A stretch of 64,000 bases of DNA, from positions 3,084,501-3,148,500 of the forward strand of contig NC_015167.1 in assembly GCF_000190595.1 (NCBI RefSeq), written 5' to 3'. The translations under genes were made by a program, and so were the position numbers. The notes beneath the pieces are model-generated. The model was not told the DNA's origin. It saw nothing but the letters and a program-made list of their open reading frames with translations, and did no database searches. Positions 61,583 to 64,000 of this stretch are shown here, piece by piece; positions within the stretch are counted from its first letter, which is position 1, and every line of letters begins with the position of its first letter. The stretch comes from Cellulophaga lytica DSM 7489. Its GTDB lineage: Bacteria > Bacteroidota > Bacteroidia > Flavobacteriales > Flavobacteriaceae.

Positions 61583-62026
61583 TTATATTTTTTTAATGTT
61601 AGCATTTAAACCTTCAACTATGCCAAGAATGTTGTTTATAGTTTCTGTAAAATGATGCTTAATTAAATCGTTGGGGATGCGAATAGTTGTAAAGCCATTT
61701 TTAAAAGAATGCATTGCTTCTTCTAAATCGTTTATTGCCTGTTCATGAGTTAGCATATGGTACTCTGTATCTATTTCTATATTTAATTTAACTCTAGAAA
61801 TAGCAATGTCTATAGATTTTTTACCATCCCACCATTCTAACATTGGTGTTAAGCCTCTCTCTTTAAGACCATAGTATAACTGTATAGCTTCTTTAGGCGT
61901 ATTGTTTTTTATAATAAGCCTGTTTAATCTCACTTGATGCTTTGCACATAACTCAACTCCAAATGCATCAATAGCATTTTTATGGTCAATATAGCTTAGC
62001 TCTTTCTTACATTCTAAACATGTCAT
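61583..62026 (-). CDS. Small protein with CxxC motif and DUF559-like nuclease-type core
   Basis: A 147-residue protein. The N-terminus has CLEC (C3, C6) and CAKH (C27, H30), a likely zinc-binding knuckle. The middle reads LTPMLEWWDGKKSIDIAISRVKLNIEIDTEYH, which resembles the PD-(D/E)xK core of DUF559/very short patch repair-like proteins (D...ExD). The final part is helical. A DNA-related function is plausible but unproven. It is transcribed away from the ilv region. Confidence 0.65.
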   Translation of the reverse strand: MTCLECKKELSYIDHKNAIDAFGVELCAKHQVRLNRLIIKNNTPKEAIQLYYGLKERGLTPMLEWWDGKKSIDIAISRVKLNIEIDTEYHMLTHEQAINDLEEAMHSFKNGFTTIRIPNDLIKHHFTETINNILGIVEGLNANIKKI

Positions 62027-62176: not shown

Positions 62177-62206
62177 TTGTCAATAAATAAAAAATATCTA
62201 ATATTG
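62177..62206 (+). promoter_or_regulatory. Possible promoter of the ilv leader transcript
   Basis: TTG (62177-62179), 19 bases and TAATATTG (62199-62206, one mismatch to TAnnTTTG). Transcription would begin only a few bases before the leader ATG at 62216, so this assignment is tentative. Confidence 0.35.
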
Positions 62207-62215
62207 CTATCAGCA

Positions 62216-62272
62216 ATGAAAAACAACATAATTATTATCGTATTAGTCATTATTATCTCTCTCTGGGGATGA
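62216..62272 (+). CDS. ilv operon leader peptide
   Basis: An 18-residue open frame encoding MKNNIIIIVLVIIISLWG. Eleven of its residues are Ile, Val or Leu (seven Ile, two Val, two Leu), the end products controlled by the ilv pathway. It lies 350 bases upstream of ilvD and just before a strong terminator hairpin. This is the standard layout of ribosome-mediated attenuation. Ribosomes stalling at the branched-chain codons would leave 62269-62281 free for antiterminator pairing. Confidence 0.88.
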   Translation: MKNNIIIIVLVIIISLWG

Positions 62273-62310
62273 TACGGTCTTATATTGATTTTAAGAAAAG
62301 CCTGTGTCAT
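62269..62310 (+). promoter_or_regulatory. Antiterminator stem of the ilv attenuator
   Basis: Bases 62269-62281 (ATGATACGGTCTT) can pair with 62298-62310 (AAGCCTGTGTCAT): 12 of 13 positions pair, counting two G-U pairs, with one mismatch. The second partner is the 5' arm of the terminator, so the two structures exclude each other. The first partner covers the leader stop codon, so a ribosome that finishes the peptide would mask it. Confidence 0.7.
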
Positions 62311-62337
62311 ATAAAATTGACACAGGCTTTTTTTTGT
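62296..62337 (+). terminator. Attenuator terminator upstream of ilvD
   Basis: The perfect stem AAAAGCCTGTGTCA / TGACACAGGCTTTT with loop TATAAAAT is followed by an eight-T run. It lies 24 bases after the leader peptide stop codon and 230 bases before ilvD, where a normal gene-end terminator would make no sense. Confidence 0.92.
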
Positions 62338-62566
62338 TTTCAACTTTATTACAACCATTATCTAATTAAACTATTAAAGGAAATAAAATAGCTGAATGTG
62401 ATACAAAATATGGTTTTATATTGTTGTAAATCAGTTAATTAAATTAATATATAGGAAGTTGGATTTATACTAAAAAACAATGTTAAAAAAATGAAGAAAG
62501 TGAAAGAATTATATTTGAATAGTAAATTATATTCAATAAACAATAAGAATTACAAGATATAGCCAA
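62338..62566. other. Leader between attenuator and ilvD
   Basis: AT-rich non-coding sequence with no credible reading frame. A TATATTTG box at 62510-62517 matches TAnnTTTG and could be a second promoter that bypasses the attenuator, but I see no -33 element. Confidence 0.4.
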
Positions 62567-64000
62567 ATGGAGTTAAATAAGTACAGTAAAAATGTAACAC
62601 AAGATCCTACGCAACCTGCCGCACAAGCAATGTTGTATGGTATAGGTTTTAAAGATGAAGATTTTAGTAAACCAATTGTGGGTATTGCAAGTACTGGTTA
62701 CGAAGGTAACCCGTGTAATATGCACTTAAATGATTTGGCTAAAGAGGTTAAAGAGGGTGTTAATACAAACGAATCTGTAGGTTTAATATTTAATACAATT
62801 GGTGTTAGTGATGGTATATCAATGGGTACTCCTGGTATGCGTTTTTCTTTACCGTCTAGAGATATTATTGCAGACTCTATGGAGACTGTTGTACAAGGTA
62901 TGTCTTATGATGGTTTAGTTACTGTTGTAGGTTGTGATAAAAATATGCCAGGTGCCTTAATGGCAATGATTCGTTTAAATAGACCATCTATATTAGTTTA
63001 TGGTGGTACAATTGCATCTGGTTGCCACAATGATAGAAAACTAGATATTGTTTCTGCATTTGAGGCATGGGGAGAAAAAGTAGCAGGTACAATGCAACAA
63101 GAGGAGTTTGGCTGTATTATTAAAAAAGCTATTCCTGGTGCGGGTGCTTGCGGTGGTATGTATACTGCAAATACTATGGCTTCTGCAATTGAGGCTTTAG
63201 GTATGTCTTTACCTTTTAATTCATCAAACCCAGCTATTGGAAAAGAAAAAAAGCAAGAGTGTGTAGCAGCTGGTAAACAAATGTATCACTTACTAAAAAA
63301 TGATATAAAACCTTTAGATATCGTTACTAGGAAATCTTTAGAAAACGCTATTCGTTTGGTAACTATAATGGGTGGTTCTACAAATGCAGTATTACATTTT
63401 TTAGCTATTGCAAGAGCGGCAGACATTGATTTTACGCTTCAGGATTTTCAGAAAATTAGTGATACCACGCCTTTTATAGCAGACTTAAAACCTAGTGGTA
63501 AATATTTAATGGAAGATGTACACCGTATTGGTGGTATTCCGGCAGTATTAAAATATTTATTGGAAAACGGATTATTACATGGCGATTGTTTAACTGTTAC
63601 AGGTAAAACGCTAGCAGAAAACTTAGAAGATGTGCCAAGCTTAATAGACGGACAAGATGTTATTCGTCCTCTAGAAAATCCAATAAAAGCAACTGGTCAC
63701 TTACGTATGCTGTATGGTAATTTGGCAGAAAATGGTTCTGTAGCAAAAATTACAGGTAAAGAAGGATTACTTTTTAAAGGAACAGCAAAGGTTTTTAATA
63801 GTGAGTATGACGCTAATGATGGTATTAGAGATGGTAAAGTTAAAAAAGGTGATGTAGTCGTCATAAGGTATGAGGGACCAAAAGGCGGACCAGGAATGCC
63901 TGAAATGCTTAAGCCAACAGCTGCAATTATGGGTGCTGGTTTGGGTAAAGACGTAGCCTTAATTACAGACGGTCGTTTCTCTGGAGGTACGCACGGTTTT
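62567..64000 (+). CDS. ilvD: Dihydroxy-acid dehydratase, 5' part
   Basis: Dehydrates 2,3-dihydroxy-isovalerate and 2,3-dihydroxy-3-methylvalerate to the 2-oxo acids in valine, leucine and isoleucine synthesis. The frame is open to the window edge, so 478 codons are visible and roughly 80 are missing. Iron-sulfur cysteines are seen in [17 protein letters not shown] and [14 protein letters not shown]. Other family motifs are [31 protein letters not shown] and, at the very end, [11 protein letters not shown]. The first gene of an ilv operon controlled by the attenuator immediately upstream. Confidence 0.95.

Follow-up and report, generated by a model that had tools for sequence, protein, structure and literature searches.

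A predicted isoleucine/valine-sensing, ribosome-mediated attenuator upstream of the ilvDBNCA operon in Cellulophaga lytica and its relatives

RESULTS

The ilvD leader region and its features

The window analyzed in this work is a stretch of 64,000 nucleotides from the genome of Cellulophaga lytica DSM 7489, and all positions refer to it. At its right end starts ilvD, the first gene of an operon that was read, with NCBIfam and Pfam names, in the order ilvD-ilvB-ilvN-ilvC-ilvA. According to these gene assignments, the products synthesize isoleucine and valine and also the precursor of leucine. The ilvD gene shares 97% identity with its C. fucicola counterpart. The nearest long frame on the 5' side of the leader (61583-62026) lies on the opposite strand and is divergent. 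The following features were annotated:

62177..62206, plus strand: predicted sigma-A promoter of the Bacteroidota type, with TTG at 62177-62179, a 19-nt gap, and the -7 box TAATATTG at 62199-62206
62216..62272, plus strand: leader peptide frame MKNNIIIIVLVIIISLWG with stop codon TGA at 62270-62272, from the sequence and 67 leaders
62251..62260, plus strand: strand 1, beginning at the third base of codon Ile12 and reaching Ser15, pairing with 62265-62274 (folding, covariation, and swap test)
62265..62277, plus strand: strand 2, spanning the stop codon, with a 3' part (62269-62277) that serves as the 5' side of the antiterminator
62292..62310, plus strand: strand 3, overlapping the 5' arm of the terminator (62295-62309)
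62295..62335, plus strand: predicted intrinsic terminator (3:4), with arms 62295-62309 and 62318-62332 and a U-run at 62328-62335
62567..64000, plus strand: ilvD (dihydroxy-acid dehydratase), continuing beyond the end of the window

The leader frame comprises 18 codons from ATG to TGA, and its 7 Ile, 2 Val, and 2 Leu residues agree with the preliminary description of this DNA, which had counted 11 Ile/Val/Leu residues among 18. Such a composition alone is not rare: 4 of the 274 ATG frames of 14 to 24 codons on both strands of the window reach 11/18, MKNNIIIIVLVIIISLWG being one of the four. The RNA of positions 62200-62345 folds at -44.6 kcal/mol (z = -7.8), a value equaled by none of 200 shuffles. 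It is the combination of frame and terminator, together with its conservation, that goes beyond chance, rather than the Ile/Leu/Val composition alone. An Rfam scan of the window, which covers leader, riboswitch, and T-box families, returned none at the gathering cutoff.

Three hairpins were identified. The 1:2 hairpin (anti-antiterminator or pause hairpin) has 10 bp, joins 62251-62260 with 62265-62274 within the leader codons, and rivals the antiterminator. The antiterminator (2:3) consists of 14 bp, namely, 9 bp between 62269-62277 and 62302-62310 and 5 bp between 62278-62282 and 62292-62296; the segment 62269-62277 of strand 2 resembles strand 4 of the terminator. The terminator hairpin predicted by folding has 15 bp and is followed by a run of eight U, so that a conserved, predicted intrinsic terminator stands between the leader and the first gene. 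It is not the end of the gene at 61583-62026, because that gene points the other way. Since 1:2, 2:3, and 3:4 are all present, the leader corresponds to a standard three-state attenuator. The preliminary description had reported a pairing of 62269-62281 with the 5' arm of the terminator and an overlap of the antiterminator strand with the leader stop; both were recovered, the former as the 9 + 5 bp helix and the latter as strand 2 covering the TGA at 62270-62272.

Conservation and covariation in the genus

All 18 genomes of the genus possess ilvD, and in 16 of them the element precedes it, with the terminator core ending 223 to 261 nt ahead of the gene. The preliminary description had made its proposal depend on conservation of the Ile/Val/Leu codons and the competing stems in close relatives; such conservation was found for the Ile and Val codons and the stems. 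In two of the 18 genomes (L116 and L119), no element was seen by eye or with model R1, and model R2 returned just one match at chance level (L116, E 0.28). No element was detected, by eye or by model, at six further loci of the family.

Covariation was assessed in an alignment of 15 distinct genus copies (A1), from which L107, identical to L106 in the aligned stretch, had been dropped; L003 and L004, which represent the same contigs as L106 and L115, were likewise left out of the counts. The best-covarying helix of the element is 1:2. It was paired in 94.7% of 150 cells and showed changes on both sides at 5 of its 10 pairs, for instance, two pairs each have U-A in place of C-G in four copies. 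The both-side changes amounted to 14 cells versus a shuffled mean of 4.3, a number reached in 0 of 500 shuffles, and pairing fell to 33 to 61% when the strand was slid by 1 to 3 columns. The terminator helix 3:4 was paired in 96.9% of 192 cells, with 8 both-side cells versus a shuffled mean of 3.2 (0 of 500 shuffles), in line with the strong terminator after the leader that had been noted before. Of five covariation measures, that of further pair types did not exceed the shuffles for either helix (386/500 for 1:2 and 446/500 for 3:4). The antiterminator 2:3 was paired in 87.4% of 190 cells (91.1% for the outer 9 bp) versus 36 to 56% when slid, and its covariation in the 15 rows gave no clear signal (3 both-side cells, 119/500 shuffles). 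As this helix hardly varies, covariation offers no argument in favor of 2:3. Such constancy might be expected of a strand that has two partners, but the signal is absent nonetheless. The check for covariation upstream of ilvD in related genomes, as suggested in the preliminary description, therefore supports 1:2 and 3:4, while 2:3 is nearly invariant. That antiterminator and terminator exclude each other is concluded from the calculated folding and from complementarity that is conserved, the antiterminator itself showing no clear covariation.

Copies in the family and the order

The family was searched with a covariance model built from 1:2 and 3:4, each genus being represented by one genome. 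Of these 199 genomes, 69 had a match at E <= 0.001 and 130 had none. The best 30 matches (at least 50 bits, window included) are located before ilvD in 26 cases and before ilvE in 4; this context was judged from the first long frame or, for L168 at a contig start, from the downstream ilvD frame, and the ilvE type was confirmed by profile on another locus, L038. The figure of 69 is no count of true copies because comparable weak matches in the order-wide search looked like chance terminators, and the true number lies somewhere between the best 30 and 69. That search, with the family model R2, gave matches in 14 of 196 genomes at E <= 1e-4 and 11 new loci. On visual inspection, four of these (L171, L172, L173, and L175) seem genuine, and the other seven (L174 and L176 to L181) resemble chance terminators. 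Order matches of 41 to 46 bits had that appearance.

The wide set left out weaker and antisense matches (26 of 57 kept) and all family matches after the best 30; antisense model matches overlapping sense ones were taken as mirror images of the terminator. From the best matches, the named genomes, and the genus, 71 copies were read, all with an Ile/Val-rich frame, and 67 were distinct after the removal of four duplicates. L168, L069, and L070, which have another terminator core, were set aside to give 64 parsed copies. Leader start codons were picked by Ile/Val share with a bonus for ATG, and the choice for L161 is probably too far upstream. Leader stop and strand 2 UGAU coincide in 48 of the 64 relatives; in the other 16, the stop lies 3 to 11 nt ahead.

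In 64/64 copies, the folding of 1:2 and of 2:3 surpasses the shuffled mean, and it surpasses 95% of shuffles in 50/64 and 59/64, respectively. The pairing of 1:2 and 3:4 in this wider set is partly selected because the search model contained both; 2:3 and an outer helix were absent from it as structure. In this outer helix, found in many relatives, codons from about -14 to -8 relative to the stop pair with the stretch after strand 2 and thereby enclose 1:2. When strands were exchanged between species, both 1:2 (-9.47 kcal/mol before and -6.08 kcal/mol after exchange) and the outer helix (-6.48 and -3.80 kcal/mol, respectively) were weakened (0/5000 permutations in each case), and the pause hairpin is therefore a long two-part structure in many species. 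The 2:3 helix hardly changed on exchange (-9.46 to -9.34 kcal/mol; 170/5000 with 64 copies and 542/5000 with 50 copies, the latter comprising the window and the copies from beyond the genus, a set in which a genus may occur more than once). The preliminary description had envisaged a compact switch of two states that lacked a separate pause hairpin. With a 10-bp 1:2 hairpin paired in 94.7% of cells and enclosed by a second helix in many relatives, this model is rejected, since 1:2 is the best-supported helix of all.

Codon signal of the leaders

Ile, Val, and Leu account for 27, 14, and 6.8% of the 1,211 residues in the 67 leaders, compared to background frequencies of 7.3, 6.5, and 9.2% of codons in 47 CDS from the window and its neighborhood. 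Leu, at 6.8% below its CDS background, was rejected as a general signal, so that of the Ile/Val/Leu signal proposed earlier, Ile and Val are conserved and Leu is not. Ile and Val together make up 65% of codons -14 to -5. The Ile/Leu/Val share at codons -8, -7, -6, and -5 is 85, 78, 97, and 81%, and it is 34% at codon -4; codon -6 is Ile or Val in 94% of the leaders. By composition and conservation, the predicted translation product is hence rich in the amino acids of its own operon. The leu genes, presumably leuC, leuD, and leuB, are located near the ilv operon on the opposite strand, and no such element was seen by eye in the approximately 140 nt before leuC. Among them is a LeuA-like gene (L139, 15903-17417, minus strand) of uncertain substrate, for which the best model was citramalate synthase, with 684.5 bits at a cutoff of 950 bits.

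GTC represents 96 of the 166 Val codons (58%) in the 67 leaders, versus 1.1% in the 47 CDS and 10% in ilvD of 78 loci; the window leader has one at 62246-62248. ATA is underused in the leaders. Among 38 tRNA genes, all read with ARAGORN, there is one tRNA-Val, with anticodon UAC. The third base of GTC is paired with a mean probability of 0.76, versus 0.49 for GTT. Since GTC thus lies mostly in paired RNA, structure may explain its excess, which need not point to a special role of this codon.

Computed switching

The effect of a ribosome was calculated by folding the RNA ahead of it, up to the end of strand 3, with assumed leading edges of 13, 15, and 17 nt. Free of a ribosome, the window RNA formed the antiterminator with a probability of 0.09, and strand 2 was paired upstream with a probability of 0.89. 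An A-site placed at any of codons -13 to -5, counted from the stop, raised the antiterminator probability to 0.95 to 1.00 (0.77 to 0.97 at codon -14); for a ribosome at the stop, the value was 0. The drop occurs somewhere between codons -4 and -2, according to the assumed edge. The means of the 64 relatives share the shape of this curve: 0.21 for the free RNA, 0.58 to 0.69 at codon -14 rising to 0.99 to 1.00 at codon -5, and 0.01 to 0.05 at the stop. In this calculation, the sensing Ile/Val codons stop just ahead of the point where stalling would cease to work, and mask folding and the codons of the 67 leaders place the control codons where the ribosome would block strand 1 or, at the end of the frame, strand 2.

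Predicted promoter and leader start

The box TAATATTG matches 5 of the 6 letters of TAnnTTTG, the flavobacterial sigma-A box, which is reported to sit at -12 to -5 (PMC9723704). Transcription is predicted to start near 62211-62212; the gap between box and start codon is 9 nt in the window, corresponding to a predicted 5' untranslated end of about 4 to 5 nt. In 27 of the 67 leaders, which are not independent since the species are related, a box with at least 5/6 letters ends on the 5' side of the start codon at a distance of exactly 4 or 5 nt; chance would give approximately 1.2 per position and thus 2.4 for the two positions. Among the 36 leaders without an upstream T-run, a box is found 3 to 9 nt before the start in 27. 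A box that ends 4 to 5 nt before the start codon would put this codon at +1 or +2, so that a leaderless leader mRNA is predicted. In the F. psychrophilum transcriptome, only 5.5% of the measured mRNAs are leaderless (PMC9723704).

Strict detector and tandem attenuators

A detector requiring an Ile/Val-rich short frame plus a terminator fired in 49 of 96 stretches upstream of ilvD, compared with 1/96 when their reverse strand was read and 0/96 when they were shuffled. It assigned one attenuator to 31 loci, two in series to 18, and none to 47. As it recovers 11 of the 16 genus copies and misses 5, it undercounts. The tandem loci, upstream of ilvD or ilvE, are L029, L038-L040, L043-L045, L050, L053, L060-L062, L069, L070, L075, L079, L081, and L082; all 18 pairs fall within the 78 named-genome loci, and the window has a single attenuator. 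Within a pair, 10 to 43 nt separate the first terminator from the start of the second leader, and the leaders, both Ile/Val-rich, differ from each other.

At 29 further ilvD loci across the phylum, the detector, applied alone and control-free, fired in 9, of which 5 belong to family f35 (with 7 loci), one pair to f28, one to f22, and two to the family of the window. In distant families, L219 to L222 and L224 (f35) and L227 (f28) show Ile/Val-rich leaders and terminators near ilvD, or a pair approximately 1 kb upstream.

DISCUSSION

It is proposed, with a probability of about 0.9, that the ilvDBNCA leader is a ribosome-mediated three-state transcription attenuator that senses a shortage of charged tRNA-Ile or tRNA-Val. 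Ribosome-mediated ilv attenuation had already been suggested in the preliminary description, and the conservation of codons, competing stems, and terminator, as well as the mask folding, argue for it. The basis of this reading is the anatomy, the conservation, the covariation of 1:2 and 3:4, and the calculated switching, and to it we add the inferred promoter position, ribosome stalling, and read-through. Transcription would begin a few bases ahead of the leader AUG. When Ile and Val are ample, the ribosome would reach the UGA and cover strand 2, the 3:4 terminator would form, and an RNA of approximately 125 nt would be the product. If Ile or Val codons at positions -13 to -5 are decoded slowly, the stalled ribosome would stop strand 1 from pairing, strand 2 would take strand 3, and, with 2:3 formed, RNA polymerase would read through into ilvD. 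An untranslated leader would form 1:2 and terminate by default. Leader-peptide attenuation needs tight coupling of transcription and translation.

Instead, the hairpin might be a plain terminator or mark where a small noncoding RNA ends, with the Ile/Val frame as a by-product of AT-rich DNA and the ilvD promoter located in 62336-62566. Short frames rich in Ile, Leu, and Val are indeed not very rare by themselves (4/274), and the 230 nt between terminator and ilvD could house a promoter. However, the upstream gene is divergent; frame, stop position, and competing stems are kept across genera; and the detector separates the ilvD loci (49/96) from both controls (1/96 and 0/96), all of which makes this explanation very unlikely. 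Even less probable is a metabolite- or protein-binding riboswitch, T-box-like or ppGpp-sensing, for example, whose terminator overlaps the short frame by chance. In other phyla, ilvD and ilvB are reported to be preceded by candidate riboswitches with unknown ligands (PMC8632094), but no Rfam family reached the cutoff in the window, the conservation tracks the Ile and Val codons, and the strands vary while pairing is kept.

The least likely alternative keeps the Ile/Val attenuation and adds an action in trans of the peptide or of the approximately 125-nt attenuated RNA. A short leader RNA is predicted here, and Sinorhizobium meliloti trpL offers a precedent (PMC7298713), yet beyond its Ile/Val content, the peptide shows little conservation in the 67 leaders.

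Attenuation at this locus as proposed above would follow the principle of the ribosome-mediated attenuators of Proteobacteria, such as E. coli trp, his, and ilvGMEDA. Shared with these are a short leader with many residues of the regulated amino acids, the 1:2, 2:3, and 3:4 hairpins, a stop codon at strand 2, and a terminator ahead of the first gene. Unlike them, the ilv element has no Rfam match and a Bacteroidota-type promoter, Leu is not enriched, the leader start is predicted to lie 0 to 5 nt from the transcript start, and two elements stand in series in some relatives. The Corynebacterium ilvBNC attenuator likewise has an ilv leader peptide and three hairpins, and a leaderless leader has been discussed for it, whereas phylum and operon order differ (PMC11857589, PMC10272879). 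Two leader frames in one leader region are also known from the Salmonella mgtCBR tandem attenuators (PMC3641672), which control other genes, whereas both members of the ilv pairs are Ile/Val-rich and spaced by 10 to 43 nt. Leaderless attenuator leaders are known or have been discussed elsewhere, for Sinorhizobium trpL (PMC7298713) as well as for the Corynebacterium gene ilvB.

Up to 2010, leader-peptide systems had, to the knowledge of the authors of a Firmicutes case, been shown only in Proteobacteria and Actinobacteria (PMC2965389). In 2020, short frames reminiscent of leader peptides were reported in Bacteroides thetaiotaomicron (PMC7366714), and in 2021, a transcriptome study of Flavobacterium psychrophilum, a member of the same family, reported "strong clues" for leader-peptide attenuation, an element of the same kind, before amino acid operons (PMC9723704). 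This study names pheA and hisG among structured 5' elements in other genera, and ilvD is absent from its main text (PMC9723704). The earlier remark that such an element is notable for a Bacteroidota thus holds insofar as it is hardly described in this family, although clues to attenuation were available in 2021 (PMC9723704). In the open full-text literature, no description of this ilv attenuator in Bacteroidota was found; a prior prediction in subscription papers is possible. The mechanism is the classic one, and the leaderless start and series arrangement of the ilv attenuators are the parts worth testing.

Tentatively, and judging from sequence, the Flavobacteriaceae may run a distinct version of the mechanism, with a leaderless leader, a long two-part 1:2 hairpin, and, in many ilv operons, two attenuators in series; on present evidence, this is somewhat less likely to be true than false. 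If true, ribosomes would engage nascent RNA at its 5' end, independently of Shine-Dalgarno pairing and fast enough to match RNA polymerase, and the series arrangement would sharpen the response. Bacteroidota are known for translation initiation without Shine-Dalgarno sequences and for an unusual primary sigma factor (PMC9723704, PMC7366714). Because attenuation needs coupling and initiation in this phylum is Shine-Dalgarno free, a conserved attenuator there would be a ready-made reporter of whether ribosomes track the polymerase in Bacteroidota and by what means. The ilv attenuator furthermore gives a rule to predict Ile/Val control in many flavobacterial genomes, and its tandem copies offer a natural test of two attenuators in series.

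Other amino acid operons of the same genome

A His attenuator was identified upstream of hisG at 3377816 (L247, G000:C1, minus strand), where the leader MRNKNTHHHHFTPCYQAS is followed by a terminator, and a 1:2/2:3 switch of the same design gives the same three-state folding. This His version adds to the case for the ilv reading, and C. lytica probably controls more than one operon by leader-peptide attenuation.

At L248 (minus strand), where no clear terminator was seen by eye, a Thr-rich frame with a TTG start, MDNVTTFSTTIFTCVITNTTITPLG, lies approximately 160 nt before an aspartate kinase gene and is reminiscent of a threonine leader.
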